From: Jiella marina | Lineage (GTDB): Bacteria > Pseudomonadota > Alphaproteobacteria > Rhizobiales > Rhizobiaceae | Direction of reading: 5' to 3' | DNA length: 64,000 nucleotides | NCBI RefSeq assembly: GCF_024359545.1 | Contig: NZ_JAKQZG010000002.1 | Span: 248,001-312,000, forward strand | In this document: piece by piece, positions 2,086 to 18,193 of the stretch | How the letters are laid out: each line of letters opens with the position of its first letter | Numbering within the stretch: the stretch's first letter is position 1 | Notes under the pieces: model-generated | Told to the model about the DNA's origin: nothing | Seen by the model: only the letters and a program-made list of their open reading frames with translations | The model's database searches: none | Translations under genes and position numbers: made by a program

Positions 2086-3315
2086 TCACTGCCCCGCCGC
2101 TGCCGCGCTTTCGGTAGCTTCGGCCCTCTCGTCCGCGACGCGTACCTCCTGGCCTTCGATCGCTGCCGGGAGGTCGCTGACCATGACCTCAGAGCCCTCG
2201 GGGAGCATTTCGCCATCCAAGAGGACGCGTGTTTCCTCGCGCAGGATCAGGCCCGGCTCTGCGCGGCGCAGTCTGCCGTTCTCGACGATCCAGACGAGGT
2301 TGCGACCCTTGACCGCCTCCGGCGGCACCTGAACGACGAGCCGGCCTTGGATCGCCACCGGGAGCGCCGCTTCCACCAGTTCGTCGATCCTCAAGGGCCG
2401 GCGGCGGTTCTCGTCGGCATCGGCGGAAAACGGCCGCGGCACCTCGACGATAAGCGCGACGGTCCGTGTTCCCTGGACGATCTGGGGATCGACGCTGACG
2501 ACGGTTCCCGATCCGAGTGCCATGGCGTCCGCGCCGGTGCCACGGAGCTCGACCCGGCCGCCGATCGCGCGCTCCGGCGTGCCAAGGATTTCGAGGTCGG
2601 CGGGCGTCAGCCCCATCTTCAGCTCGGCCGCTTCGGCATCGATGAGCGTGCCGAGCATCGTCCCCGGCTGAACGAGGCTGCCGACAGCCGCCGATTCCGC
2701 CGTGACGAGGGCATCGAAGGGCGCGCGAATCTCGGCGTCCGCCAGGGCGTTCTGCGCCTGCGTCAGCCCGGCCTCGGCATTGGCGAGATCGGCTTCGGCG
2801 CTGGCGACCTGGACGATCGTGTCCTCAAGTTCCGCTTCGCTCGAAAAATCCTGCTGCGCCAGCCGTTCCTGGCGTTCGCGGGCGACGCGGGCATCCGCCA
2901 ACGAGGCTCGTGCCTGCGCCACGCGGGCTTCGGCCTGCTCGACATCGGCCTGAAGGTCTTCGGTTTCGAGGGCGACGAGAAGCTCGTCTTCACTCACCCG
3001 CTCTCCGACGCGGAGATCCTCGCTCACCATGCGAATGCGACCCGGCGCCTCGGCGGTTACCGAGACTTCGGCGCGAGGCCGCAGGAATGCCGTCTGGGTG
3101 ATGACGAGTTGCGAAGCGGCCTGCGCCGTGGCCGTTTCGACCAGGGGAGCCGCCGGCGGCTGCTGTTCCGATTGCGGGCCGGGCCGGGTCAGCCACCAGT
3201 AGGCCCCGGCACCGATGGCGAGAACCACCAGCCCTGCCAGCGCCCACAGAACCCACCCCCAGCGACTGGAAGATTCCCGATCGCGATCGTCCCGTTCTTC
3301 CTCCGCGGTCGTCAT
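2086..3315 (-). CDS. RND efflux periplasmic adaptor subunit (HlyD/MFP family)
   Basis: This membrane-fusion adaptor links the RND pump encoded just downstream to an outer-membrane channel. The 409-residue protein has an acidic and basic cytoplasmic N-terminus and one membrane anchor near residues 22-46 (WALAGLVVLAIGAGAYWWL). A split lipoyl domain flanks a long alanine- and glutamate-rich alpha-helical hairpin (about residues 100-190, e.g. EQAEARVAQARASLADARV), followed by the beta-barrel and membrane-proximal domains. The ATG overlaps the stop of the upstream fasciclin/PRC gene (ATGA), and its own stop is one base from the pump's start, so the three genes form one operon. No outer-membrane factor gene is visible; a shared TolC-like channel is presumably used. 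Confidence 0.92.
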   Translation of the reverse strand: MTTAEEERDDRDRESSSRWGWVLWALAGLVVLAIGAGAYWWLTRPGPQSEQQPPAAPLVETATAQAASQLVITQTAFLRPRAEVSVTAEAPGRIRMVSEDLRVGERVSEDELLVALETEDLQADVEQAEARVAQARASLADARVARERQERLAQQDFSSEAELEDTIVQVASAEADLANAEAGLTQAQNALADAEIRAPFDALVTAESAAVGSLVQPGTMLGTLIDAEAAELKMGLTPADLEILGTPERAIGGRVELRGTGADAMALGSGTVVSVDPQIVQGTRTVALIVEVPRPFSADADENRRRPLRIDELVEAALPVAIQGRLVVQVPPEAVKGRNLVWIVENGRLRRAEPGLILREETRVLLDGEMLPEGSEVMVSDLPAAIEGQEVRVADERAEATESAAAAGQ

Positions 3316-4814
3316 TCGGCGTCGTCGGAGCCAGAATCCTCGACGACCACCGAGCCATCGAGCGGATCGATGACGATCTGTGCCACCGGGACGCGGCGCG
3401 TCTCCTCGTCGCCGAAGCCGAGAAAGCCATCCGACGTTTCCAGGACGACCGTGCGGACCCGCGCATCTTCCAGCGTGACGAGAACATCCGAGATGGTGCC
3501 GATCTCGTTGCCTTCGCCGTCCATGGCGGATTGGCCGATGAGATCCGCCGTCGAAACGATCTCGCGGGTCAGCCCGACATCGGGCACGGCCGGAGAGTCT
3601 GTCTCGTCCGGCGTCTGCGCCCCGTCAGCCGATGCAACTTCCTGCCCGGTCCGGGTGTCATCGCTGGCATTCGTGGCCGTCGTCATATCGGCATCGGCCT
3701 CATGGCGGGAATCGCCGGGTGTCGTATCGGTGGTGACGATCCCGTCAATGTTATTCGGACCCTGATCCTCTTGCGGGGACGGATCCTGGTTTCGCGATGC
3801 CTGATCCTCCGGAGGCGCGATCGTGACCGTGCTGCTGCTATCGACCATCTCCCTTGCGTCCGCCGTCTCGCCGTCGAGGCCGGTCGTATCGGAGTCGGAG
3901 CCGGGCAAGCTCGTCTCGGAGGAACGCATTTCGGCATCGCCGCCGGGTGCCGCGGGCGTCGGCCCTCTGTCAGACGCCACGATCTCGGACGCGAAATCCT
4001 CGCCGGTGCCGTCGTCGGCCGGACTGGTCTCGGCAGCGCTGACGTCCGTGTTCCCGCCGTCGCTCTGGCGCGCCGCCCCTGTCGAGGCGTCGTCAGCCGA
4101 AGCCACCTGATCGCTTGGCTGGTCGTCGTCGACGAAAGCCGTGGGAGCGAAGCCGGGCGGCAGAAGCACACGGTCGATCGCATGGACGATGATCCCATCC
4201 TGCCCGGCAACATTGCCGGTCACCACGCGCGTTTCATCCGCGGCGCGGGCGCGCAGGAGGTCGGTGAGATTCTCCGTCCCCTTCGGCGGAGGAACCTGCA
4301 ACGTCAATTCGCCCCGCGAATAGGTGGTGACGAGACGCCCGAGCCCTTCTTCCTCGGCAAAGGTCTGCATCTCGACGGGAATGTCATCGGCATCATGCGG
4401 GCCCGATGGCACGATATGAAGCTTCACGATCTGGTCGGCCGCTTCCTCGTGCTGGGTGCCTTGCATTTCCTCGACCAGCGCGGCCGGAAGACGGTCGAAG
4501 GCCTCGTTCGTCGGGGCAAAGACCGTCGCGGTCTCCAGCCCATCCAGATCCGCGGACTCTGCCAGCGCGGCAAAGGTGCTGAATCGGCTTTCGTTCTGCA
4601 AAAGCTCGCGTAACGTCGCCTCGTCGGCAGGGGCCGCGCCCGTCGAAGAGAGCAAAGCAGCAAGCGACACGGTCACCATCGCGCTGGTGGCCCCGCGCTT
4701 GCGGGCCGGATATCGATGCCCGCGGCCCTTCACCTGTGCCTCATGCTCTCGAACTCCGTGATCGACGTCATTGCCTGCTTCTCCGAAAGCCTGTTGGGTG
4801 TTTCGAGCCGCCAT
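3312..4814 (-). CDS. Exported fasciclin-domain / PRC-barrel chimeric protein
   Basis: This protein of about 500 residues has three parts. After a basic segment and a hydrophobic signal-like stretch (MVTVSLAALLSSTGAAPADE, about residues 46-65) comes a fasciclin/FAS1 domain (about residues 66-215) with the typical ATVFAPTNEAFDRLP and VHAIDRVLLPPG motifs. A long low-complexity linker rich in Asp, Thr, Ser and Glu follows (about 220-410). The C-terminus is a PRC-barrel domain (IGTISDVLVTLEDARVRTVV). FAS1 domains usually mediate extracellular adhesion, while PRC-barrels are usually cytoplasmic or photosynthesis-linked, so the pairing is odd. The true start is uncertain: the first ATG leaves an atypically long N-terminus, and a GTG about 28 codons later or the ATG at codon 46 are alternatives. 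Its TGA overlaps the adaptor ATG, placing it first in the efflux operon. Function is unknown. Confidence 0.8.
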   Translation of the reverse strand: MAARNTQQAFGEAGNDVDHGVREHEAQVKGRGHRYPARKRGATSAMVTVSLAALLSSTGAAPADEATLRELLQNESRFSTFAALAESADLDGLETATVFAPTNEAFDRLPAALVEEMQGTQHEEAADQIVKLHIVPSGPHDADDIPVEMQTFAEEEGLGRLVTTYSRGELTLQVPPPKGTENLTDLLRARAADETRVVTGNVAGQDGIIVHAIDRVLLPPGFAPTAFVDDDQPSDQVASADDASTGAARQSDGGNTDVSAAETSPADDGTGEDFASEIVASDRGPTPAAPGGDAEMRSSETSLPGSDSDTTGLDGETADAREMVDSSSTVTIAPPEDQASRNQDPSPQEDQGPNNIDGIVTTDTTPGDSRHEADADMTTATNASDDTRTGQEVASADGAQTPDETDSPAVPDVGLTREIVSTADLIGQSAMDGEGNEIGTISDVLVTLEDARVRTVVLETSDGFLGFGDEETRRVPVAQIVIDPLDGSVVVEDSGSDDAE

Positions 4815-6767: not shown

Positions 6768-7109
6768 ATGTCTAAATTAGCAAGTCCTGATATAGAGATG
6801 CTGGAGCAGCGATCCGAGCATGTGGCGGCGCTGCTTTCCCTGATCGCCAATCCGGCGCGCCTGCGGATTCTCTGTCTTTTGGCCAAGGAGGAGATGCAGG
6901 TCGGGGCGATGGCGGGTGCGCTCGGCCTCAGCCAGTCTGCGCTCTCGCAGCATCTTGCGAGGCTCAGGGCCGGTGGGGTCGTCGAGACCCGCCGCGACCG
7001 GCAGGCGATCTTCTATCGCCTCGCCGATGGCGAGATCCGCGCCATCATGGACAGCCTTTACGACATCTTCTGCGGCAGCGCAGAGACGGATCTCGAAGAC
7101 AACGCCTAG
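6768..7109 (+). CDS. bigR: ArsR-family persulfide-sensing repressor (BigR/SqrR type)
   Basis: A 113-residue winged-helix ArsR-family repressor. The HTH is AGALGLSQSALSQHLARLR (about residues 49-67) and the wing ends in ETRRDRQAIFYRL. The classic ArsR metal motif (ELCVCDL) is missing. Instead there are two cysteines, C36 in RILCLL and C102 in DIFCGS, 66 residues apart. That spacing equals the C42/C108 pair of BigR and the C41/C107 pair of SqrR, which form an oxidised or polysulfide bridge that releases DNA. It is divergent from the blh/rhodanese operon it should repress. A later ATG (codon 11) could be the start. Assignment as BigR/SqrR rather than a metal sensor is well supported. Confidence 0.88.
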   Translation: MSKLASPDIEMLEQRSEHVAALLSLIANPARLRILCLLAKEEMQVGAMAGALGLSQSALSQHLARLRAGGVVETRRDRQAIFYRLADGEIRAIMDSLYDIFCGSAETDLEDNA

Positions 7110-7456: not shown

Positions 7457-8740
7457 ATGGCCCGCCTCTCTCCCCAGCCCCAATCCCATGCCGCAGCCAG
7501 CCCCTCGACGCTTGGTGACCAGTACCGACGCGTTCGCGAGGACAGCCGGCGGCTCGGCGAACCGCTCTCGGACGCGGATGCGACCGTCCAGTCCATGCCC
7601 GATGCAAGCCCGGCGAAATGGCACCTCGCCCACACCACCTGGTTCTTCGAGACGATGGTGCTGAAGCCCAATCTCGACGGCTACAAGCCGTTCGACGAGC
7701 GCTTCGACTATCTGTTCAACTCCTATTACGAGACGCTGGGCGAACGGCATCCGCGGCCGCGCCGCGGCATGATCACCCGGCCCGCGCTCGATACGATCTT
7801 CGATTTCCGTGCCCATGTGGACGAAGGGATCGACAAGCTTCTCGCCAGCGATCCCGATCCGTCCGTCGCCGAACTCGTCGAACTCGGCTGTCATCACGAG
7901 CAGCAGCACCAGGAACTGCTCCTCACCGACATCCTACATCTCTTCGCGCAAAACCCGACGAAGCCGGCCTATCGCGATCCCCAGCCGCTGGCCGTCGAGC
8001 CGGGCGAGGCGGATGACGCGCGCTTCGTCTCCTTCGACGGCGGTATCGTCGAGGTTGGCCATGATGGCGAGGGCTTCGCCTTCGACTGCGAAGGGCCGCG
8101 CCACCGCGTCCTGCTGGAGCCCTATCGCCTCGCCGACCGGCTGGTGACCAATCGCGAGTTCATCGCCTTCATCGAGGATGGCGGCTATTGCGATCCGCTC
8201 CTGTGGCTCTCCGCCGGCTGGGCCGACATTCTGGCGAATGGCTGGTCGAAGCCCTTCTACTGGGAGGAGCGCGACGGCGAATACTGGACAATGACCCTGC
8301 GAGGCGCCCAGCCAGTCGACCTCGACGCGCCCGTCACCCATCTCAGCTATTTCGAGGCCGACGCCTTCGCCGCCTGGTCGGGCAAGCGCCTGCCTACCGA
8401 GTTCGAATGGGAAAACGCCGTCCAGTCGCTGCCGGTGGAAGGCAATCTCGCCGATTCCGGTCGCCTGCGTCCGCGCCCGGCCCAGGCGGGCGAGGGGCTG
8501 CGGCAGATGTATGGCGACGTGTGGGAGTGGACGCGCAGCGCATTCTCGCCCTATCCGCGTTTCAAGCCGGCCGAAGGCGCTGTCGGCGAGTACAATGGCA
8601 AGTTCATGTGCGGCCAGTTCGTGCTGCGCGGCGGCTCCTGCGCGACGCCGGCCGGGCACATCCGTGCGACCTACCGCAATTTCTTTCCACCCGACGCACG
8701 CTGGCAGTTCTCCGGCCTGCGGCTGGCGGAGGATGCGTGA
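7457..8740 (+). CDS. egtB: Ergothioneine biosynthesis sulfoxide synthase EgtB
   Basis: EgtB is a non-haem iron enzyme that joins a thiol substrate (gamma-glutamylcysteine or cysteine) to hercynine with oxygen, a step in ergothioneine synthesis. The 427-residue protein has the N-terminal DinB-like helical domain with iron ligands in WHLAHTTWFFE (H59) and CHHEQQHQE (H147 and H151). The C-terminal FGE-sulfatase domain (about residues 190-427) has the motifs LPTEFEWENAV, GDVWEWT and VLRGGSCATP. Length is normal for the family. Its TGA overlaps the egtD ATG (TGATG), so the pair is co-translated. EgtA, EgtC and EgtE are not in the window; many alphaproteobacteria have only egtB-egtD together. Confidence 0.95.
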   Translation: MARLSPQPQSHAAASPSTLGDQYRRVREDSRRLGEPLSDADATVQSMPDASPAKWHLAHTTWFFETMVLKPNLDGYKPFDERFDYLFNSYYETLGERHPRPRRGMITRPALDTIFDFRAHVDEGIDKLLASDPDPSVAELVELGCHHEQQHQELLLTDILHLFAQNPTKPAYRDPQPLAVEPGEADDARFVSFDGGIVEVGHDGEGFAFDCEGPRHRVLLEPYRLADRLVTNREFIAFIEDGGYCDPLLWLSAGWADILANGWSKPFYWEERDGEYWTMTLRGAQPVDLDAPVTHLSYFEADAFAAWSGKRLPTEFEWENAVQSLPVEGNLADSGRLRPRPAQAGEGLRQMYGDVWEWTRSAFSPYPRFKPAEGAVGEYNGKFMCGQFVLRGGSCATPAGHIRATYRNFFPPDARWQFSGLRLAEDA

Positions 8741-9696
8741 TGCTCGACCGCACCGATACTCTGACGCTCCAGCGCGAAGCCTTTCGCCGCGACGTGCTGG
8801 AAGGTCTCGCCCTGTCGCAAAAGACCATTCCGGCCCGCTGGCTCTATGATGATCGGGGCTCGGAACTCTTCGAGGACATCACGAAGCTCGACGAGTATTA
8901 CCCGACGCGCACCGAGCGGGCGATCCTGGAACGCCACGCCGGCGACATCGCGCAGAAGCTCGGGCCCAAGGCGTCGCTCATCGAGTATGGAGCGGGCGCC
9001 GGCATCAAGACGGAAATCGTCCTCGATGCTCTCGACGACCCGGAACTCTACGTGCCGATCGACATTGCCGGCGACTTCCTGGAGGCTTCGGCCGAACGGC
9101 TCCGCGGGCGCTTCCCGGCTCTCGACGTGCATCCCGTGGTCGGCGACTTCACCGACGACATCGACCTGCCGGACAGCCTCCCCGACGAGGGGCGGCGGTG
9201 CGGCTTCTTTCCCGGTTCCACCATCGGCAATCTCGACCCGAAGGATGCGGTGACCTTCCTGAAGCGCATGCGCGGCCATGTGGGTCGAGGCGGCCGGGCG
9301 GTGCTCGGCGCCGATCTGAAGAAGCCGATCGAAGACCTTCGACGCGCCTATGACGACAGCGAGGGCGTGACGGCCGCCTTCAACCAGAACCTCCTGATCC
9401 GCATCAACCGCGAACTCGGCGGCGATTTTCCCCATGACGCGTTTCATCACGAGGCGCGATGGAACGACGCGGAATCGGCGGTCGAGATGCATCTCGTCGC
9501 CGACCGGGAGGTTTCGGTCAGCGTTGCCGGCCAGAGTTTCGACTTCCACGAGGGCGAGACGATCCATACCGAAAGCTCGCGCAAATACGATCGCGCGAGC
9601 CTCGGAAAACTCGCCGGATCGGCAGGATGGGAGATCGAATCCTTCTGGACCGACGACAAGGACCGCTTCTCGGTGACCATGCTGAAGGCGGCGTAA
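8740..9696 (+). CDS. egtD: L-histidine N-alpha-methyltransferase EgtD
   Basis: EgtD trimethylates histidine to hercynine using S-adenosylmethionine, supplying the substrate of EgtB. The 318-residue protein opens with a typical segment (KTIPARWLYDDRGSELFEDI, residues 28-47) and TKLDEYYPTRTE. It has the SAM-binding motif IEYGAGAGIKTEIVLDAL, the FFPGSTIGNLDP motif and the C-terminal HTESSRKYD segment that helps bind histidine. The start at 8740 overlaps the egtB stop by one base. A much longer open frame upstream in the same phase is only a shadow of egtB. Confidence 0.95.
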   Translation: MLDRTDTLTLQREAFRRDVLEGLALSQKTIPARWLYDDRGSELFEDITKLDEYYPTRTERAILERHAGDIAQKLGPKASLIEYGAGAGIKTEIVLDALDDPELYVPIDIAGDFLEASAERLRGRFPALDVHPVVGDFTDDIDLPDSLPDEGRRCGFFPGSTIGNLDPKDAVTFLKRMRGHVGRGGRAVLGADLKKPIEDLRRAYDDSEGVTAAFNQNLLIRINRELGGDFPHDAFHHEARWNDAESAVEMHLVADREVSVSVAGQSFDFHEGETIHTESSRKYDRASLGKLAGSAGWEIESFWTDDKDRFSVTMLKAA

Positions 9697-9977: not shown

Positions 9978-10334
9978 GTGAGGGTGGGGCTCGTGGATCT
10001 GGTCACGAAGATCATCGTCATTTGCGCGGTCTCGGCGCTCGCCATCTTTGCCCTCTGGCGAACCGGAGCGAAGGACGCCACCGCGCCCCAGCAGCTTCCC
10101 TATCTCGGCGGCGGCACCCCGGATACCCATGCCTGGCAGCGCTATCATGTGCGCTATTACTCGATGACGCTGCTCTTCATCGCCTTCGAGATGGAGATGA
10201 TGTTCATGTATCCCTGGGCCGTCGTCTTCGTCGAAGAGGGCGGCAAGGCGATGATGGAAATGGGGATGTTCCTGGCGATCCTGTCCATCGGCATCGTCTA
10301 TGCCTGGCGCGAGGGCGTGTTCCGGTGGCAGTGA
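9978..10334 (+). CDS. Complex I-like subunit NuoA homologue
   Basis: A 118-residue three-helix membrane protein of the NuoA/ND3 family, first gene of a complex I-like operon. The family signature is clear in TM2 (VRYYSMTLLFIAFEMEMMF followed by MYPWAV), but the usual aspartate-glutamate pair is E71 and E73. The quinone-side loop reads LPYLGGGTPD and lacks the PYECG-type cysteine of typical ND3/NuoA. The start is a GTG at 9978, with other GTG codons close by. The 3' end overlaps the next gene (GTGA). Which complex it serves is discussed under the operon: the redox subunits of normal complex I are absent. Confidence 0.85.
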   Translation: MRVGLVDLVTKIIVICAVSALAIFALWRTGAKDATAPQQLPYLGGGTPDTHAWQRYHVRYYSMTLLFIAFEMEMMFMYPWAVVFVEEGGKAMMEMGMFLAILSIGIVYAWREGVFRWQ

Positions 10335-11497
10335 GCGCGCTGAAGAGATGGGCGGGCAAGGCCCCGGCGTCGGTCTTCGTCGCAATCGGCGAAGGGATGC
10401 GCGAACGCGTCGAACGCCTCTTCGCCGATCCGAGGATCGAGCGGGCGGCGACGCCGCGCCATGCCGCGATCTTTCTGATCGCCGGACCGATGCGACTTGA
10501 GGATCGCGAGGACCTGCGCCGCCTCCACGACCAGATGCCGCATCCCCGCGCGACGCTTCTGTGGGCTGCAGAGGTCGGCGAGGCGTTGGGCGATGCCGAA
10601 AAGCTCAACTTCACCCTCCAGCCTGCTGACACGAGCCGGGCAGATGAGGCAGCGCTTGACCGTCTCACCCGGATCTGGGCCGAACTTTCGGACGGCGAGC
10701 GGCCGAGTGAACCGGACCTGTTGCACGACGAGCCGCCCAATCCCTGGCAGGGGATCGGTCCCCACGGCCAGGGCGGCAAGGGCATGATGGGCGGCACGCC
10801 CTACGGACGGCCGATGGCGATGACCGCCGACGATCTGAGAGACGGCCTCGCGCTCGATCCGTATACCGCGCGCTTCGGCCCGTTCCTGCCGATGTTTCCG
10901 CCTGGGTTGTTGTTGGAGATGACGTTGCAGGGCGACGTGATCCAGTCCGCCAAGGTCTTGCGACCGCCCCTGCCTCAGGCAGCGAGGGATGATGCTTCGG
11001 CTGCGCTGCTCAGGCTGGCGCGGCTCCTCGATCTCCTTGGCCTGCCCGTGCTCGGCCATCGCGCTCGGCTTGCGGCGGCGGGCGATCGGCCATCATCGAC
11101 GCTTGAAACTCTCGGCCGTGCCATCCGCTGGTCCGGCTCCACGCTCGCCATCCGCCCGGGGCTTGGTGCGGTCGAAGGACAGGGGGACCTGCGCACCCGT
11201 TTTGATGATCTCCTGGCCGTGACGGGCGGTTCTTCGGCCGAGACACGGCCCGAACTGCCGGAATCGGCCCATCTCTCCTCGCTCCTGCCCGGCCTCGAAT
11301 GGTCCGAGGCTATGCTCGTCCTGAACAGCTTCGACGACGAGACGCTTTCGGCGCTGGCCGTGGTCAAGGAGGACGAAGACAAGGATGGCCACGACCATGA
11401 GGGCAGCGGCTACATGCACCATGAACACCACGGCCATGGGGGCCATCAAGGCGACGGTGGGCATGACCATCATGCGGGCCACGGAGGCGGCGCATGA
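10331..11497 (+). CDS. Cysteine-free NuoB-like / NuoD-like fusion protein with histidine-rich tail
   Basis: A soluble 388-residue protein placed exactly where NuoB-C-D sit in complex I operons. Residues about 40-82 resemble NuoB (TPRHAAIFLIAGPM, then LHDQMPHPRATLLWA), but every cysteine of the N2 [4Fe-4S] site is missing; the whole protein has no cysteine. Residues about 145-212 carry a conserved-looking stretch (PYGRPMAMT, DGLALDPYTARFGPF, LLLEMTLQGDVIQ) reminiscent of the NuoD N-terminal beta domain. The quinone-binding histidine/HRGxEK region is not seen. Residues about 350-388 are His-rich (12 histidines in about 39 residues), suggesting metal binding. The GTG start overlaps the nuoA stop, and the 3' end overlaps the NuoH homologue (ATGA). 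Similarity to NuoB/NuoD is my reading of motifs, not a search result. Confidence 0.7.
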   Translation: MSALKRWAGKAPASVFVAIGEGMRERVERLFADPRIERAATPRHAAIFLIAGPMRLEDREDLRRLHDQMPHPRATLLWAAEVGEALGDAEKLNFTLQPADTSRADEAALDRLTRIWAELSDGERPSEPDLLHDEPPNPWQGIGPHGQGGKGMMGGTPYGRPMAMTADDLRDGLALDPYTARFGPFLPMFPPGLLLEMTLQGDVIQSAKVLRPPLPQAARDDASAALLRLARLLDLLGLPVLGHRARLAAAGDRPSSTLETLGRAIRWSGSTLAIRPGLGAVEGQGDLRTRFDDLLAVTGGSSAETRPELPESAHLSSLLPGLEWSEAMLVLNSFDDETLSALAVVKEDEDKDGHDHEGSGYMHHEHHGHGGHQGDGGHDHHAGHGGGA

Positions 11498-12414
11498 CCA
11501 CATTTCTCGCCGCTCTCCTCCTCATCCTCTTCCTGTCGGTCGGCTTCGCCGGCGCGGCCGTCGCCGACCGGGCCATTCCCGCTTTTCTCGCCGGACAAAC
11601 CGCCCCGTCCTGGCGTCTCTCCCTCGCCGACGCCGTGCGTCTTCTCCAGACCCAGCGCATCCGCACCGAAGCGCCCGACGCGCTGCTCTGGTGGCTCGCG
11701 CCAGCCCTCTACCTCGCCCTCGCGATCGTTGGTCTCGCCGTTATCCCCTTCGGCCAAGACCTCGTTGCCATCCCGAGCGAAGTCGGCATCGTCGTCTGGG
11801 GCAGTTGCGAGGCGTTGACCATCGTCGCGGTCTTCATGTTCGGCTGGTCCGCCAATGCGCCGCTGGCGTTGATCGGCGCTTATCGCTATGTGGCGATCGG
11901 CTTGCCGGCGATGCTTCTGTCGATGTTCGTGCTGATCGGCGCGGCGCTTCCGGCGGAGTCCCTCGGCTTCATCGAGATCGTCGAGGCGCAGCGCACGGTC
12001 TGGAACGTCGTGCGCCAGCCGGCGGGGCTGATCCTCTTCCTGATGCTCGGCCTCGCAATCAGCCTGCGCGGACCCTTCGACTATGCCAGCCCGGAAGACC
12101 TTGCCGGCGGCGTGACAGCGGATGTCTCCGGTCCCGGCCTGCTCGCCTGGAAGATCGCCCGGCTCACGATGCTGGTCTCGGTCTCGGCGGTGACGGCTAC
12201 GGCCTTTCTCGGCGGCTATCTCGGGCCGATCCTGCCGGGCTTCGTCTGGCTGCTGCTCAAGACTGCGGTGGTTCTGCTCGTCCTGATCTGGGCGGGCAGC
12301 GTGTTCGCGCGCATGCCCCCCGCCCGCATGATGAGCGTCATCTGGACGATGCTCCTGCCGCTCTCCTTCCTCATGCTTCTCGTCGTCGGAGTGGAGTTGC
12401 TGCTATGGGGCTGA
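11494..12414 (+). CDS. Complex I-like subunit NuoH homologue with degenerate quinone-site loops
   Basis: A 306-residue polytopic membrane protein (about eight helices) at the NuoH position. NuoH normally forms the quinone chamber and joins the redox arm to the membrane arm. The canonical QxRxGPN loop is replaced by QTQRIRTEAPDALLWWLAP. The acidic PFDLPEAEQELVAGY loop is reduced to PFDYASPEDLAGGV, so most quinone-chamber glutamates are gone. The helix framework (AIPSEVGIVVWGS, LGLAISLRGPFDY, LKTAVVLLVLIWAGSVFARM) still matches the family. It overlaps the upstream fusion gene by four bases and the NuoJ homologue by ten. A pumping or structural role without quinone chemistry is inferred. Confidence 0.75.
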   Translation: MTTFLAALLLILFLSVGFAGAAVADRAIPAFLAGQTAPSWRLSLADAVRLLQTQRIRTEAPDALLWWLAPALYLALAIVGLAVIPFGQDLVAIPSEVGIVVWGSCEALTIVAVFMFGWSANAPLALIGAYRYVAIGLPAMLLSMFVLIGAALPAESLGFIEIVEAQRTVWNVVRQPAGLILFLMLGLAISLRGPFDYASPEDLAGGVTADVSGPGLLAWKIARLTMLVSVSAVTATAFLGGYLGPILPGFVWLLLKTAVVLLVLIWAGSVFARMPPARMMSVIWTMLLPLSFLMLLVVGVELLLWG

Positions 12415-13001
12415 CCGATCTTCTCTTCTTCGCCCTGTCGGCCGTCGCGATCGTTTCCGGATGGCGTGTCTTCGCCACCGATTCCATGGTGCGCGCGTCC
12501 TTCCTGCTGCTTCTCTCCTTTGTCGCGGTCGGCCTGATCATCGTCATGCTGGCCGCCCCCTATATCGGCGTCGCGACCGTTTTCATGATGGCTGTCGAGA
12601 TGATGGTCATGGCCCTCTTCATGGTCATGTTCATGATGAACCCGGCCGGGCTCAACCCGATGATGATGGTGCATCAGCATCGCTTCTCGATCGCAGCCGG
12701 CGTTCTCGCCTTCGCCGGGCTCACCGCCGCGATCCTCTTCACGAGCTTTCCCGAAAACTCCGTCGATCCTTCGACGCCGGTCGTCCACGATCTCGGCATC
12801 GAGCTTCTCGGGCCCTCCATGCTGATCTTCGAGACGGCAGGCGTGACACTGCTCGCCACCATGATCGGCTCGGTGATCCTCTCCTCGCGCTCGGGCCGTT
12901 TCGGCATGGCGGATCAGGGCTCGAAACCGCCCGGCCTCGAACCGGACGGCGAACCCGCTGGACGCCAGCCCGAACAGGGCGGCGGCCACCATCATCATTA
13001 G
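12405..13001 (+). CDS. Complex I-like subunit NuoJ homologue with His-tail
   Basis: A 198-residue, five-helix protein of the NuoJ/ND6 family. The TM3 region (APYIGVATVFMMAVEMMVMA) corresponds to the pi-bulge helix of NuoJ, normally A-x-x-V-x-G-A; here it is methionine-rich. After the last helix the protein has a Gly/Pro tail ending in GGGHHHH, an unusual extension that parallels the His-rich tail of the fusion subunit. The start ATG at 12405 overlaps the upstream NuoH homologue by ten bases; the longer open frame in this phase is a shadow. The neighbours (NuoH before, NuoK after) are in the normal complex I gene order, with nuoI missing between H and J. Confidence 0.82.
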   Translation: MGLTDLLFFALSAVAIVSGWRVFATDSMVRASFLLLLSFVAVGLIIVMLAAPYIGVATVFMMAVEMMVMALFMVMFMMNPAGLNPMMMVHQHRFSIAAGVLAFAGLTAAILFTSFPENSVDPSTPVVHDLGIELLGPSMLIFETAGVTLLATMIGSVILSSRSGRFGMADQGSKPPGLEPDGEPAGRQPEQGGGHHHH

Positions 13002-13014
13002 GAGGCCGAAACCC

Positions 13015-13320
13015 GTGACGCTCGCCACCGTCCTCATCGTCGCCGCGGCCCTGATCGGCATCGGACTATACGGCGCCCTGTCGCAGCAGAGTTTCGTCAT
13101 GCTGATGATGGGGCTCGAACTGATGCTGAATGGCGGGCTGCTCGCCGTGATCGGGCTATGGGCGAACACCATGGGCGGCGCGCCGGAGGGCCAGCTTCTG
13201 GCGATCATCATCATGGCGGTGATGGCCGTCGACATGGCGATCGGCTTCGCTCTGGTGACAGCCGTCTATCGCAAGCGGCAGGCCGACGTGACCGAAAGCC
13301 TGACGACGATGAAGCACTGA
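13015..13320 (+). CDS. Complex I-like subunit NuoK homologue
   Basis: A 101-residue, three-helix protein of the NuoK/ND4L/MrpC family with a GTG start. The first key carboxylate is conserved (E35 in MMGLELMLNG). The second, normally glutamate (E72 in E. coli), is an aspartate here (D73 in MAVDMAIGFALVTAVYR). These residues form part of the proton or ion path in complex I and Mrp antiporters, so the pathway seems kept but altered. It sits 13 bases after the NuoJ homologue and three bases before the NuoL homologue. Confidence 0.85.
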   Translation: MTLATVLIVAAALIGIGLYGALSQQSFVMLMMGLELMLNGGLLAVIGLWANTMGGAPEGQLLAIIIMAVMAVDMAIGFALVTAVYRKRQADVTESLTTMKH

Positions 13321-13323
13321 TCG

Positions 13324-15273
13324 ATGGCGTTTCTTCTCCCCCTCCTGCCGATCCTCTTCGCCATCGCAACCACGTTTGCGCCGCGCGGAGATGATGGACG
13401 TCAGCGTCTTTGGCTGACGGGTCTGGCGGTCGCCGCCATGGCGCTGACGGCATTCGCCGCCGCCCTGGGCGCGGCAGGGGGATGGACCGGCCATATCGCC
13501 TGGCACGAGCCGCTCGGGCTGACGGCCGCCCTGCCGCCACTGGCCGGGGCGATGGCGATCCTCGTGCCGCTCATCGCGCTGCCCGTCCTCGCCTATGCCG
13601 CTTTCCATGAGGAAGGCCGCGGCCTGCGCCGGCTCGTCGCCATCCTCCTCGTCTTCGTCGGCGGCATGGAGCTTCTGGTCGTCGCGGCGGATTTCCTGAC
13701 GCTTCTGATCGGCTGGGAGCTGGTCGGCGTCTGCTCCTATCTCCTGATCTCCCATGAGTGGCGAAACCGCGAAAACACCGCCTCCGGCCTCTATGCCTTC
13801 CTGATGACGCGCTTCGGCGATCTCGGGCTCTTCGCCGCCGCCATGGCGGTCTTTTCGGCGACGGGCTCCTTTTCCTATGACGGCCTTGGCCTCATGGAGG
13901 GCGTGCCGGCGGCGGTCGCGGGCTTTGGCCTGCTCTTGGCCGCCGCCTCGAAATCCGGCCAGATCCCCTTCGCGCCCTGGCTCTTCCGGGCGATGGCGGG
14001 GCCGACCTCGGTCTCGGCGCTCCTCCATGCCGCGACCATGGTCGCGGCTGGCGCCTTCATCCTCTTGCGCCTCGAACCCTTCCTCGCCTCCGTGCCGGGC
14101 CTGCCGGGGACGATCATCGCCGTAGGTGCTGCAACCGCGCTCTCGGGTGGCATCGTGGCGCTGCTCCAGACCCATGCGAAGCGCCTGCTCGCCGCCTCCA
14201 CCTCGGCCCATTATGGGCTGATGTTCGTGGCGGTCGGCGCCGGCTATCCGGGCGTCGCCTTCCTCCACCTCGTCGCCCACGCGGCCTTCAAGGCCCTGCT
14301 CTTCCTCGCGGCCGGTGTCGCTCACGAGAAGACTGGCAGCTACGATCTCTCGGCAATGCGCCTCGGCCGGGCCTTGCCGCTGGTGGGCCTTTTGACACTC
14401 GTCGGCGCCCTGTCGCTCGCCGGCGTGCCGCCGCTCGGCGGGGGCTGGACCAAGGAAGCGGTAACGACGGCGGCCGAGCATTGGAGCCTATGGGCCGCCG
14501 GGGCGGTGATTCTCGCCGGGGCTCTCAGCGCCGCCTATGCCGCACGATTCCAGCTTTCCGCCTTTGGCCAGGCCGAGGAACAGGACGATGAGGACGAGGG
14601 CGAAACCGCGCCGCTCTGGCCGCAGACCCGCGCCCGGCAGGTCGAGATTGGCGCGATGGCGCTGCTTGCCCTCTTCGTTCTCCTGACCTCGCTGCTTTGG
14701 CTCCCGCCGGTCCGGTCGACCCTCGAAGAACTCCTGCAAACCGCGCTTCCGGAGGCGAGCGTCGCGACCCTTGTTCTCTCGCTGATCGGCGTCGGTCTCG
14801 GCCTTCTCACCGGAACCATGATCGCCCGGCAGTATCGCACTCTCGGCACCGAGGGCGCTGCCGCCGAAGCGGCCCACTGGCTCGGCCTGCCGGCGCTGAT
14901 CGATGCCGCGGTCACCGGCCCCGTGCTCTGGCTGTCACGGAAGGCCGCCAAGCTCGATGACAAGCTCATCGACGGCGCGGTTCGGCTCGTCGCGCTCGGC
15001 GGCCGAGGCGCCTCCTGGGTGATGCGCCAGAAGGGCGAGGCCGGCGCGGAAGGCCTCGTCACCCAGGCGACCGGTCTCGTCGGAAGCCTTTCGCGGACCA
15101 CGTCCCGCTTCGGCGAATGGCTGACCGACGGCCTCGTCGAAGGCCTCGCGCTCACCGTCGGCCAGAGCGGGCGCGATGCACGGCGCCTGCAAACCGGCCT
15201 TTCCCACCATTACTATGCGATCGCAACGCTCGGTGCCGGCGCGGCGATCATCCTCCTGTTGGGCCTGTCCTGA
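13324..15273 (+). CDS. Complex I-like antiporter subunit NuoL homologue
   Basis: A 649-residue polytopic protein of the NuoL/ND5/MrpA family. The antiporter core is intact: E132 in WELVGVCSYLLIS, a histidine/lysine-containing channel segment (KSGQIPFAPWLFRAMAGPT followed by SVSALLHAATMV), and AAFKALLFLAAG. The C-terminal extension (about residues 560-649), corresponding to the long lateral helix HL and last helix, is present. The N-terminal FRVDGLS-type motif is poorly preserved. The family also includes DabB and Mrp subunits. Neighbouring NuoA, H, J, K, M and N homologues favour a complex I-like assembly over those. Confidence 0.88.
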   Translation: MAFLLPLLPILFAIATTFAPRGDDGRQRLWLTGLAVAAMALTAFAAALGAAGGWTGHIAWHEPLGLTAALPPLAGAMAILVPLIALPVLAYAAFHEEGRGLRRLVAILLVFVGGMELLVVAADFLTLLIGWELVGVCSYLLISHEWRNRENTASGLYAFLMTRFGDLGLFAAAMAVFSATGSFSYDGLGLMEGVPAAVAGFGLLLAAASKSGQIPFAPWLFRAMAGPTSVSALLHAATMVAAGAFILLRLEPFLASVPGLPGTIIAVGAATALSGGIVALLQTHAKRLLAASTSAHYGLMFVAVGAGYPGVAFLHLVAHAAFKALLFLAAGVAHEKTGSYDLSAMRLGRALPLVGLLTLVGALSLAGVPPLGGGWTKEAVTTAAEHWSLWAAGAVILAGALSAAYAARFQLSAFGQAEEQDDEDEGETAPLWPQTRARQVEIGAMALLALFVLLTSLLWLPPVRSTLEELLQTALPEASVATLVLSLIGVGLGLLTGTMIARQYRTLGTEGAAAEAAHWLGLPALIDAAVTGPVLWLSRKAAKLDDKLIDGAVRLVALGGRGASWVMRQKGEAGAEGLVTQATGLVGSLSRTTSRFGEWLTDGLVEGLALTVGQSGRDARRLQTGLSHHYYAIATLGAGAAIILLLGLS

Positions 15274-15276
15274 TCC

Positions 15277-16779
15277 ATGCTGACGCTCTCGATCCTCATC
15301 CCGCTTCTTGCCTCGCTCGGCCTGTTCGTCTGGTCGGATGCCACCAAGGATAAAGCACGCCGCGTCGCCCTCGGCGCCTCGGCCCTGTCGCTGATCTGCC
15401 TGATCATCGTCTGGCTCGGCTTCGATAGCGGGCCCGAGGCGCCAGCCTTCCAGGCGGTCTCGGAGGTCGGCTGGATCGACGCGCTAGGCGTCGCCTGGCG
15501 GGTGGGCGTCGACGGCATGTCGCTCGCCGTCTCGCTGATGAGCGGCCTCCTGTTCCTCTGTGCCATTGCCTGGCCGGCGGAGACGAAAGGCCGCGCCCGG
15601 CAATATTACGCCTGGTTCCTGTTTCTCCAGGGCGTCTCGCTCGGCCTCTTCCTGACGCTCGATCTCCTCATCTTCTACGTCTTCTTCGACCTGACGCTGG
15701 TCGGCATGTATTTCCTGATCGGCCGCTGGGGTCATGACCAGGCCGAATACGCGGCGCTGAAATTCTTCGTCTATACGCTGGCCGGCTCGCTCGCGATCCT
15801 TCTCGCCATCCTCGGCCTGGTGCTTGCGAACGACACGCTCACCTTCGACATGCCAGCCCTGATCGCCGCCCAGCCGCTCGGCGGAACAGACCTGCGTGCA
15901 AGCCTCATCCTCCTTGGCTTCCTCGTCGGCTTCGCCATCAAGACGCCGCTGGTGCCGTTCCACACCTGGCTTCCGCTCGCCCATGTGGAGGCGCCGGGGC
16001 CGGCCTCGGCCGTTCTCGCGGGCGTGCTTCTGAAAATGGGCACCTATGGCATGGTGCGCATACCCTTCCAGATGATGCGCGAGACCTTCGCGGCCTATGC
16101 GTTTCCGCTGGCCATCGTCGCCCTCGTCGCAATCCTCTGGGGTGCGCTCGTGGCGCTCGGCCAGACGAACCTCAAACGCCGCATCGCCTACACCTCGGTC
16201 AATCACATGGGCTACACCGTGCTCGGCATCGCCGCCGCCGGTGCGATGATCGGCAGCGACAGCGTGCGGACACTCGCCCTGTCGGGCGCGGTGACGGAGA
16301 TGGTCGCCCACGGCCTCATCACCGGTGCGCTCTTCCTCATCGCCGGCAGTTTCTATACCCGCACCGGCACCTATGATCTCGCCCGCTATGGCGGCCTCGC
16401 CCGCATCGCGCCGCTTCTGATGGCGGCCTATTTCCTCTCGGCCTTCGCCAGCTTCGGCCTGCCGGGCCTCGCGGGCTTCGTCGCCGAGTTCCAGATCTTC
16501 GCCGGCAGTTTCGGCGTCTATCCCGTCCTCGCCGCGATCGGTCTTCTCGGCCTCGTTGTCACCGCGGCGCTCTTCCTGATGATGGGCCAGCAGATCTTCT
16601 TCGGCACGCCCGCGCCGGGGATGATGGCGATCAAGGACCTGAAACCCGCCGAAATCGGGCCGCTCGCGGTGCTCCTTGTCCTGGTGGTGTTGATCGGCCT
16701 CCTGCCCGGCTGGCTCCTTGACATGATCCAGACCGGCTCGGCCTTCGCGCCGTTCCAGGCAGTCGGCGGGGCGCAGTAA
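15277..16779 (+). CDS. Complex I-like antiporter subunit NuoM homologue
   Basis: A 500-residue, 14-helix protein of the NuoM/ND4 family. The channel signature KTPLVPFHTWLPLAHVEAP with the following VLLKMGTYGMVRI segment is canonical. The glutamate of TM5 (E144 in E. coli NuoM) is an aspartate here (D138 in FFDLTLVGMYFLIGRWG). The N-terminal VDGMSLAVSLM motif is preserved. It starts three bases after the NuoL homologue and ends one base before the NuoN homologue. A role as an ion-translocating antiporter-like subunit is well supported; the driving force is unknown because no redox module is encoded. Confidence 0.9.
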   Translation: MLTLSILIPLLASLGLFVWSDATKDKARRVALGASALSLICLIIVWLGFDSGPEAPAFQAVSEVGWIDALGVAWRVGVDGMSLAVSLMSGLLFLCAIAWPAETKGRARQYYAWFLFLQGVSLGLFLTLDLLIFYVFFDLTLVGMYFLIGRWGHDQAEYAALKFFVYTLAGSLAILLAILGLVLANDTLTFDMPALIAAQPLGGTDLRASLILLGFLVGFAIKTPLVPFHTWLPLAHVEAPGPASAVLAGVLLKMGTYGMVRIPFQMMRETFAAYAFPLAIVALVAILWGALVALGQTNLKRRIAYTSVNHMGYTVLGIAAAGAMIGSDSVRTLALSGAVTEMVAHGLITGALFLIAGSFYTRTGTYDLARYGGLARIAPLLMAAYFLSAFASFGLPGLAGFVAEFQIFAGSFGVYPVLAAIGLLGLVVTAALFLMMGQQIFFGTPAPGMMAIKDLKPAEIGPLAVLLVLVVLIGLLPGWLLDMIQTGSAFAPFQAVGGAQ

Positions 16780-16780
16780 C

Positions 16781-18193
16781 GTGATGCCGCTCGGAGATAT
16801 CCTGCCGGAGATCGCCGTGCTGCTGACGGCCGTGGCGATCGTACTCCTGGCCAGCTTCCTGCCGCGCCGGCTGCAGTGGACCGGCGCGCCGGTGGCGCTG
16901 GCAGGGCTCGCAATCGCGGCCCTTTTCCTGCTTGCCCAAGCGAGCGGCGAGGCCCGCGCGACCTTCTCGCAGACCTACGCGCTCGACATGGCGAGCGTCG
17001 AGGGCCGTCTCCTCATCCTCTTCGCGACGGCCGTCACCGTGCTCCTCTCCCCGCGGTGGTTCGCCACTGACCAACGCCACGGCGAATTCTACGCCATGCT
17101 CCTGTTTTCGACCCTCGGCGCGATGGTGCTGGCCGGGGCGCTCGACCTGCTCCTCGTCCTGATCGGCGTGCTTCTGTCCTCGGCCACGGGCTACGTGCTC
17201 GCCGCCTATCACCGGGATTGGGCGCTCTCGGTGGAAGCGGGGATGAAATACTTCCTCGTCGGCGCGCTGGCGAACACCGCGCTGGCGCTGGGTGCGACCT
17301 TCATGATCGGCATGCTCGGCTACCCCGGCTTCGGCGAGATGGCGGCGGCGCTCGCCGTCGGCGAAGCCTCGCCGCTTCTCCTCGTCGGCCTCGGCCTCGT
17401 CGTGATCGGCATGGCCTACAAGCTTGGCGCCGTGCCCGCCCATGCCTGGCTGCCGGATGTTGCGGAGGGCGCCCCGGCCCCTGCCGCCGCCTTCCTGACG
17501 GTCGCGCCCAAGATCGGCGCGGCGATCGCGCTCGCCCGGCTCGTTTCGCTCTTTCCCGAGACCGGTTTCGCCATCCGGCCGCTGGTTGCCGCGCTCGCCG
17601 TCATCACCATGACCCTCGGCAATCTCGCGGCCCTGTGGCAGGACGACATGCGCCGCATGCTCGGCTGGTCCTCGGTCTCCCAGGCGGGCTATCTCCTGAT
17701 GGCCGTCACCGTCGCGGGCCTGAGCGATCAGGCGATGCCTGCCCTACTCATCTTCCTCGCCGGCTACACCGCCGCCAATCTCGCCGCCTTCGCGGCCGTT
17801 ACCCATCTGCGCGGCCGGACCGCCCGAAACGACTATGCCGGCCTCCTGAAAACCGCGCCGTTCGCCGCGATCGCCCTCATCATCGCCTTCCTGTCGCTGG
17901 TCGGCATCCCGCCACTCGGCGGCTTCCTTGGCAAGCTGGAACTCTTCCTCGTGACGATCGACGGCGGCTATGGCTGGCTCGCCGTTGCGGCGCTCTTCAA
18001 CACCGTTCTGTCGCTCGTCTACTATCTGCGCTTTGCCGTGCCGATGATCTGGCGCGAGCCAAGCGGCACTCTTTACCGGCTGGGGGCCTGGTCGGCCGTC
18101 GCCTTGGGAATCGCCCTCGCCGCGACAGTGGCTGTCGGGCTCCTCGCGCAAGCGATCCTTGGCCCGCTGGCGGGGGCGGCATTCCTTCCCTGA
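16781..18193 (+). CDS. Complex I-like antiporter subunit NuoN homologue lacking the TM5 glutamate
   Basis: A 470-residue, 14-helix protein of the NuoN/ND2 family and last gene of the operon. Lysine-channel motifs are present (EAGMKYFLVGALANTALA, AYKLGAVPAHAWLPDVAEG, LGWSSVSQAGYLLMAV). The glutamate expected in the LGIELMSLPLY-type TM5 motif is a leucine (about L131 in IGVLLSSATGYVLAAYHR), so one of the usual carboxylates of the pump is lost. The gene may start at GTG 16781 or ATG 16784. It converges on the MFS transporter gene with only about 40 bases between stops and no clear terminator. Confidence 0.88.
   Translation: MMPLGDILPEIAVLLTAVAIVLLASFLPRRLQWTGAPVALAGLAIAALFLLAQASGEARATFSQTYALDMASVEGRLLILFATAVTVLLSPRWFATDQRHGEFYAMLLFSTLGAMVLAGALDLLLVLIGVLLSSATGYVLAAYHRDWALSVEAGMKYFLVGALANTALALGATFMIGMLGYPGFGEMAAALAVGEASPLLLVGLGLVVIGMAYKLGAVPAHAWLPDVAEGAPAPAAAFLTVAPKIGAAIALARLVSLFPETGFAIRPLVAALAVITMTLGNLAALWQDDMRRMLGWSSVSQAGYLLMAVTVAGLSDQAMPALLIFLAGYTAANLAAFAAVTHLRGRTARNDYAGLLKTAPFAAIALIIAFLSLVGIPPLGGFLGKLELFLVTIDGGYGWLAVAALFNTVLSLVYYLRFAVPMIWREPSGTLYRLGAWSAVALGIALAATVAVGLLAQAILGPLAGAAFLP

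Follow-up and report, generated by a model that had tools for sequence, protein, structure and literature searches.

A redox-free derivative of complex I with circumstantial links to copper in Jiella marina and other bacteria

What does the membrane arm of complex I do when the subunits that carry its redox chemistry are missing beside it? This question is raised by eight packed genes on the + strand (9978-18193) of a 64,000-nucleotide stretch of the Jiella marina genome (contig NZ_JAKQZG010000002.1, positions 248,001 to 312,000; hereafter the window), which follow the order A-BD-H-J-K-L-M-N, BD being a fusion of NuoB-like and NuoD-like parts. We find that this cassette is a real, conserved, redox-free derivative of complex I, tied to copper by strong circumstantial evidence and probably rebuilt to move or respond to copper, not to respire. 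The substrate was the clue missing from the initial annotation of the window; gene neighbourhoods, gained methionines, His tails and metal-binding motifs in a sister class of cassettes together point to copper or another soft metal. We see about an even chance that the genes encode a complex I-derived membrane complex that gave up quinone/NADH chemistry and was remodelled to handle copper or some other soft metal, with net export of Cu(I).

A conserved operon without redox subunits

Complex I families in Pfam and NCBIfam assign seven of the eight genes, which together make up a membrane arm: NuoA-like (9978-10334, +; PF00507, 1.1e-24), NuoH-like (11494-12414, +; PF00146, 8.7e-46), NuoJ-like with a short His tail (12405-13001, +; PF00499, 2.2e-17), NuoK-like (13015-13320, +; PF00420, 4.5e-15) and the antiporter subunits resembling NuoL (13324-15273, +; PF00361, 1.1e-52), NuoM (15277-16779, +; TIGR01972, 460 bits with a cutoff of 264) and NuoN (16781-18193, +; PF00361, 3.9e-55). 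The remaining gene, BD (10331-11497, +), encodes 388 residues with 19 His and no Cys and draws weak NuoB scores only (NCBIfam, 4.7e-4; Pfam, 0.01). BD starts with a GTG at 10331, inside the 3' end of A, and J, for which we used a start upstream of that in the list of open reading frames (ORFs), begins at 12405 within the 3' end of H. Adjacent genes overlap by 4-10 bases or are separated by 1-13 bases, which fits a single operon. The NADH and Fe-S (iron-sulphur) modules C, E, F, G and I were not found in the gene content of the window, nor was any complex I redox subunit found among the Pfam-scanned neighbouring genes, which bears out the gene order without redox subunits described initially.

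On another contig (C6) the same genome encodes a canonical nuo operon, which comprises A, B, C, D, F, G, H, I, J, K, L, M and N of its own and a NuoE recognised by eye in an ORF of 484 residues. The redox set on this contig thus has its own membrane arm, and the possibility raised initially, that the cassette is the sole membrane arm of the genome, is ruled out. The cassette could be read as a spare arm docking on the peripheral arm of the canonical complex, in favour of which a PF00346 search found canonical NuoD in 46 of 50 cassette genomes; we nevertheless regard this reading as highly improbable, given that the canonical operon has its own arm, that BD would compete for the docking site, that conserved residues of NuoH and NuoA are lost and that the drafts of Halomonas korlensis and Billgrantia antri carry the cassette with no NuoD match outside BD. 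In these drafts the one weak PF00346 match lies, by its coordinates, within BD itself, and two cassette-bearing metagenome-assembled genomes (MAGs) gave no PF00346 match. With no NuoD found beyond BD in some drafts, the cassette can occur without a detected canonical NuoD.

A contig scan recovered 118 relatives encoding the cassette, the best 80 of which were analysed. All eight genes are kept in the same order and on the same strand in 74 of these 80, a statement about contiguity, the flanks not having been checked individually for C, E, F, G and I modules; the remaining six comprise five loci cut by contig ends and one, L017, with a truncated L. This completeness rules out decay, which had been doubted initially because the genes are tightly coupled and keep antiporter cores. 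In L017 (12808-13500), L is matched over ~127 residues and followed by CopB-like sequence, with M and N absent, which may reflect a broken copy or a misassembled MAG. The relatives include Fulvimarina, Aurantimonas, Palleronia and other alphaproteobacteria, Salinisphaera, Halomonas and its relatives, and Rhodanobacter. The distribution is rare and patchy, with the cassette in 3 of 150 genomes of the order and 5 of 398 of the phylum (the J. marina genome included in both) and not found in the single genome of the same genus that was searched (G573).

Several loci stand out for their genomic setting. Two copies occur per genome or strain in seven cases (L031/L032, L033/L052, L027/L035, L030/L053, L073/L079, L082/L088 and L089/L090), the two-copy hosts including Palleronia abyssalis, P. 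pelagia, a Rhodobacteraceae isolate, a Salinisphaera MAG, Roseovarius spongiae and Salinicola peritrichatus, and Roseivivax marinus carries copies on two plasmids. One cassette (L078) lies on a contig titled as an Actinomycetota MAG, either a transfer or a binning error. The Consotaella genome that harbours L015 has further NuoB/NuoD-like loci (L140, L141 and L142), two of them with antiporter-like and NuoH-like genes.

The BD cap and the membrane subunits

A profile built from 63 BD sequences matched 43 PDB sequences with E values up to 1, all of them NuoB-type subunits or their hydrogenase counterparts except one unrelated chain (E 0.57); the best match was a NuoB chain (E 3.2e-8 over 45 residues). 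An AlphaFold (AF2) monomer model of BD reached a predicted local distance difference test score (pLDDT) of 85.6 and a predicted template modelling score (pTM) of 0.82, and a Foldseek search with this model of the window's cassette type (class 1) gave 829 matches, of which the 50 listed are, judging by chain letters and names, all NuoB-type chains; a NuoD fold was thus unconfirmed among these 50. When the profiles of class-1 BD and NuoD are compared directly, they align weakly (E 0.034), with GPFLPMFPPG of the window protein opposite the NuoD loop GPQHPAAHG (columns 183-193) and both His replaced. One His of this loop in NuoD binds the quinone head group. We assign the NuoD part because the BD homologue of a sister class (class 2, see below) aligns with NuoD over 312 columns (E 6.4e-10) and also with class-1 BD across both parts, and because PF00346 is matched by BD of two class-1 relatives (E 1.1e-7 and 9e-8, in the range of about 1e-7 to 1e-8). 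Judging from these alignments, BD is a reduced NuoB plus NuoD, presumed to form the cytosolic cap.

The initial claim that the B/D-like protein lacks cysteine stands for the window and for 10 further BD rows (two of these, L007 and L057, being one locus), but it is not general, since the BD proteins of relatives carry 0-6 scattered Cys. In the NuoB-like part no column has Cys in more than 15% of the 82 aligned rows, and the ligands of cluster N2 were not encountered. A frame error hiding cysteines, raised initially as an alternative, is unlikely in view of the other Cys-free rows and the lack of a conserved Cys column. The conserved BD loop GPHGQGGKGMMGGTPYGRPMAMT (residues 143-165; 10757-10825, +), with the conserved stretch GQGGxGMMGGxPYGRPMxMT, has low confidence in the monomer model, as would be expected for a loop that binds a partner or ligand, and the C-terminal tail (about residues 353-388; 11387-11494, +) is rich in His.

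We aligned the cassette subunits with canonical subunits from cassette-bearing genomes and from E. coli, with start sites set by rule (19 canonical rows for A and 16 for the other subunits). The 17 canonical regions comprised 14 with all 13 queried subunits (NuoE was not queried) and three partial ones (L125, L131 and L137). After removal of fragments and identical copies, the cassette alignments retained 81 of 87 rows for A, 82 of 87 for BD, 82 of 85 for H, 81 of 85 for J, 74 of 84 for K, 79 of 82 for L, 77 of 81 for M and 76 of 81 for N. We then took the residues that reach 90% conservation in a cassette column and are rare in the canonical proteins. Methionine occupies 6 of 22 such columns for A, 11 of 52 for J and 5 of 28 for K, against 2 of 35 for H, 0 of 43 for L, 2 of 55 for M and 3 of 45 for N (pooled, 22/102 versus 7/178; Fisher test, nominal P = 6.7e-6); one gained-Met column in K and one in N fall at or beside the start. 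Overall methionine content follows the same division, being raised in A, J and K and lowered in H, L, M and N.

Helix 3 of NuoJ carries a methionine ladder (residues F60-Q91 with the loop after it; 12582-12677, +), FMMxVEMxVMxxFMVMFMMNPAGLNPMxMVHQ, from which the 27 aligned relatives seldom depart (conservation over 81 rows). NuoJ residues Tyr59 and Gly61 are replaced by Met and Val, respectively, in 81 of 81 rows, and at least four His occur in the last 40 residues of NuoJ in 74 of 84 cassette rows and in none of 16 canonical ones. In NuoA, the run E71 M72 E73 M74 M75 F76 M77 (nucleotides 10188-10208, +) contains three methionines, M72, M74 and M77, that are common to classes 1 and 2 and rare in canonical NuoA, and both acids are kept (Asp79 as Glu). 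NuoK of the window has gained M29, M31, M67 and M70 and keeps E35, with D73 at the position of E. coli E72; across the family Glu36 is kept and Glu72 mostly so (Asp in the window).

The position of NuoH E157 is occupied by Met in 62, Ile in 15 and Leu in 4 of 82 class-1 rows (Met in the window), that of E241 by Arg or Lys in 82 of 82 (Arg in the window), and that of NuoN E133 by Leu in 76 of 76, with Gln at the H305 position of N in the window. In NuoL, E144, R175, D178, K229, H254, K305, H334, H338, K342 and K399 are near-constant, the changes being D303 to His and, mostly, D400 to Glu, and NuoM keeps K234, H241, K265, H322, H348 and E407, with E144 as Asp. The antiporter cores, described as intact in the initial annotation, are therefore largely so in L and M but not fully in N. 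Taken together, the residue changes mean that acids are gone at the quinone side and at N, and that soft-metal ligands appear between them.

These positions can be placed on the structure of E. coli complex I, where Gly61 of J (at the pi-bulge), Asp79 of A and Glu157 of H share a hydrophilic cavity and a second chain comprises Glu55 of J, Glu36 and Glu72 of K and Glu133 of N, with no continuous path from the cavity to the Glu chain according to the authors (PMC8357420). In the same structure Glu81 of A faces Ser145 of J and Glu102 of A (PMC8357420). Ion translocation by the cassette complex would follow from homology, and we infer metal binding by A, J and K as well as transport, its direction and its coupling. 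With a confidence somewhat short of even, we propose a metal pump on a complex I chassis, with a metal-receiving cap substituted for the quinone and redox arm, a Met-lined Cu(I) path through J, A and K in place of the E-channel, and L and M run in reverse as the ion-driven export motor. The BD cap would take up Cu(I) in the cytosol through its Met- and His-rich segments (through CPMHP motifs in the sister class), and the J ladder would hand the metal to A and K in mid-membrane, the methionines and carboxylates of J helix 3, A and K forming the metal path at the site of the complex I E-channel. Glu94 of A and residues of J could then lead the metal to the periplasm, export being powered by ion influx through the L and M antiporters. 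With energy from this influx, the most likely net action would be export of Cu(I) to the periplasm. The loop after the J ladder is presumably the counterpart of the loop between transmembrane helices (TMH) 3 and 4 of ND6. In Drosophila complex I, the ND6 TMH3-4 loop lies near the TMH1-2 loop of ND3 (PMC9977279).

The largely intact antiporter residues of L and M would suit a copper-gated ion pump or antiporter, in which metal bound on BD and J opens or drives movement of H+ or Na+ under copper stress, restoring pH or membrane potential, while copper itself never crosses the membrane. The metal-binding domains of class 2 fit this alternative as well, and DAB2, in which a complex I-like subunit works with a soluble domain, offers a precedent (PMC13144422); the gained Met columns, however, are found in membrane subunits (A, J and K) and not in the cap alone, and we rate gating as clearly less probable than the export pump, though the strongest of its competitors.

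A sister class of cassettes and the copper-gene neighbourhoods

A search of 293 genomes from the order of genome G490 (probably Pseudomonadales) with a J profile gave five matches at E ~1e-101, belonging to class 1, and four at ~1e-45. The latter mark four loci (L200-L203) with the order A-BD2-H-J-K-L-M-N, which we term class 2; multicopper oxidase, CopB and an APC permease precede the cassette in L200 and L203, and that of L202 starts near a contig end. BD2 of L200 (5736-7826), the one BD2 that was scanned, contains HMBD heavy-metal-binding domains in two stretches (Pfam, E 2.3e-28), placed with a long His-rich linker between the NuoB-like and NuoD-like parts, and a CPMHP motif is present in all four BD2 proteins, twice in three and once in the fourth. 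NuoJ of three class-2 loci reads MMMATEMSIMAIFMVMFMMDPGGLGGMDMSHQ. Methionine makes up 3 of 10 columns common to both classes and rare in canonical proteins in A, 11 of 26 in J and 4 of 14 in K, against 0 of 7 in H, 0 of 13 in L, 1 of 23 in M and 1 of 15 in N (pooled, 18/50 versus 2/58). In a NuoH tree the two classes are joined (support 100/98) and stand separate from the 16 canonical and the 3 hydrogenase-type rows, and in a quick tree cassette L, M and N each cluster with canonical NuoL, NuoM and NuoN. From this grouping, in trees that held no Mrp rows, the cassette looks derived from a complex I arm with three antiporters.

A related cassette is already in print. In Marinobacter atlanticus, Eddie et al. 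(2021, PMC8233155) described a nuoADHJKL-like cassette (ACP86_11540-11570) amid copper-resistance genes and co-expressed with them, which is probably of the same kind as class 2. That paper lists seven genes, M and N not among them, and an L that lacks the C-terminal extension, whereas L200-L203 have the full A-BD2-H-J-K-L-M-N set; methionines and HMBD, seen here, are not mentioned for it in the available parts of the text. The authors propose that energy is derived from copper redox reactions or that redox cofactors are replenished (PMC8233155). The co-location and co-expression with copper genes in M. atlanticus agree with their idea of an ion pump driven by copper redox chemistry (PMC8233155), but in the class-1 cap the NuoB-like part has no conserved Cys, and the GPQHPAAHG His and H E157 are replaced, which leaves no evident electron acceptor site. 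We consider such a pump quite unlikely.

Flanking genes of the cassettes were clustered and representatives named by Pfam, and the marker set was taken from the families seen in the flanks. These include multicopper oxidase, CopB, metal P-type ATPase with HMA domains, MerR-type regulator, AcrB/CusA-type pump and CusB-type protein, as well as DUF305, DUF411, DUF326 and DsbA/ScsC-type proteins; CopC and CopD queries gave no match in the locus marker search. A copper-linked marker was present in 50 of 82 cassette loci and at least two in 30 of 82, or, since L007 and L057 are the same locus found twice, in 49 and 29 of 81 distinct loci; with a stricter list lacking DUF305, DUF326, DUF411 and cupredoxin, 35 of 81 retain one. 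The same marker proteins and thresholds gave 0 of 40 in random 20-kb regions from 14 cassette genomes (50/82 versus 0/40; Fisher test, nominal P = 1.2e-12), it being understood that the cassette loci vary in length and include the cassette, whereas the controls are 20 kb each. The controls came from 60 regions drawn at random on contigs with PF00346 matches: the first 20 as drawn, and a second 20 hand-picked from the remaining 40 to spread over genomes.

Annotated plasmids agree with this picture, four records (two of them from one strain) having multicopper oxidase in all four and cueR with a heavy-metal P-ATPase in three, and the Halomonas KO116 record having CopB, CopC and CopD near the cassette. 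In 10 of 82 loci, or 9 of the 81 distinct ones, A is preceded by a CueR-like operator (at least 12 of 14 matches to the consensus), compared with 2 of 410 mononucleotide shuffles; seven of the boxes are within ~175 bases of the A match and the others 330-440 bases away. Resistance-type neighbours (multicopper oxidase, CopB, CusA/CusB type and metal P-ATPase) argue against the cassette importing copper or another metal, or pumping a different soft metal, for instance Ag(I). Met-rich helices reveal neither direction nor which soft metal is bound, and HMBD is named just as a heavy metal binding domain; we hold this alternative to be unlikely, if slightly less so than the copper-redox pump.

Several observations weigh against a role in copper export. 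No copper marker was found in the available flank of 32 of 81 distinct loci, nor in the first 28.2 kb of the window, which also has no CueR-like box (9 of 14 matches); CopB was not found in the J. marina genome, and the multicopper oxidase matches of this genome are on contigs other than that of the cassette. The class-2 locus L201 has a weak DUF411-like match only, and class 2 represents at most two independent types (2 distinct sequences of 4 for H, J and K). The His tail of BD is a minority feature: 14 of 85 rows have four or more His among their last 40 residues. The P-values above are nominal because markers and tests were picked after viewing the flanks and because the loci are related. 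Finally, the same islands contain known copper exporters, beside which a further one could be redundant.

The neighbours of the cassette in the window itself are, by Pfam, an ArsR-type regulator, a rhodanese, a fasciclin/PRC protein (3312-4814, with a fasciclin and a PRC-barrel domain), a PF03781/PF12867 protein, a major facilitator superfamily (MFS) protein, a cupin, RibD_C and CMD; three neighbouring ORFs gave no match in the Pfam scan. The PF03781/PF12867 protein is EgtB by tblastn, and the region 7457-9696 (+) holds the ergothioneine synthesis genes egtB (7457-8740; Pfam and tblastn) and egtD (match at 8779-9693), both detected with the Halomonas KO116 proteins. Ergothioneine is a copper-binding thiol, and egtB and egtD of the window may be functional neighbours, not subunits. 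Ergothioneine genes lie by the cassette in distant lineages (the window, L092:24093-26365, L076, L082, L086, L087 and L088), before it in the window and in L086, where egtD precedes A, and after it in the others: egtB starts just past N in Halomonas KO116 and also follows N in L076, L082, L087 and L088. Enrichment was not seen, EgtB and EgtD each being found in 4 of 82 loci and 1 of 40 controls. Upstream of egtB, the ArsR-type regulator (6768-7109) is a candidate metal-responsive regulator. An APC-family permease stands beside cassettes of both classes (L007:470-1789, L091:9862-11181, L092:12451-13788, L200:1509-2861 and L203:2843-4177).

Known relatives of complex I and significance

Compared with canonical complex I, the cassette has homologous A, H, J, K, L, M and N but lacks C, E, F, G and I, and B and D are reduced to a fused cap without the N2 cysteines and the GPQHPAAHG His; H E157 and N E133 are lost, and A, J and K gain Met. 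The initial annotation held that none of the known redox-free precedents has this subunit set, which is right for Mrp and Dab but overlooks the copper-linked Marinobacter cassette (PMC8233155); given this published relative, the cassette kind is not unprecedented. Mrp antiporters, too, are redox-free relatives of the membrane arm, but the cassette has NuoH, NuoA and a B/D cap. Membership of Mrp is rejected, as no antiporter model reaches its cutoff among the best 25 matches listed for L, M and N (NuoL reaches 212 bits with its best antiporter-A model, the cutoff of which is 1104 bits) and H, A and BD are present. A group 4 [NiFe] hydrogenase is likewise rejected, with no Cys in BD for Ni-Fe or Fe-S ligands and a cassette NuoH separate from three group-4-type rows. 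Ehr complexes are relatives of complex I and hydrogenases without a known redox reaction and keep Fe-S subunits; the cassette has no Fe-S subunits that we could see.

DAB2/DabAB resembles the cassette in that a redox-free complex I-like membrane subunit is coupled to a soluble domain, in that case driven by the proton-motive force, but it consists of a single membrane subunit, DabB, with DabA, a different soluble domain, and lacks the H, A, J, K, M and N set (PMC13144422). The carbonic-anhydrase-like partner DabA was not found in the operon or its scanned neighbours, and membership of DabAB was rejected. Subunits of nuo have been reported on plasmids in 57 species, for the most part as incomplete sets, in a paper whose available text gave no match to the word copper (PMC12361115). 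An Acidithiobacillus paper on copper methylation, as far as its accessible text goes, names nuoH-N merely as NADH dehydrogenase genes, and none of five nuo-type terms was found in an Alteromonas copper paper. Beyond Eddie et al., we found no description of such a cassette in the open-access literature, subscription papers being outside the search, nor did we meet the gained methionines, lost acids and class-2 metal-binding motifs in the accessible parts of the papers examined.

How the quinone site of complex I is coupled to its distant antiporters is a question of long standing. A natural derivative with a replaced substrate site, a partly replaced E-channel and largely intact L and M would provide an independent test of which parts couple, and the gained methionines, lost acids and class-2 motifs make a direct test possible. 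The cassette, whose genes on plasmids are annotated as NADH-quinone oxidoreductase subunits, may be an overlooked copper-resistance system, patchily distributed in alpha- and gammaproteobacteria and sometimes plasmid-borne.

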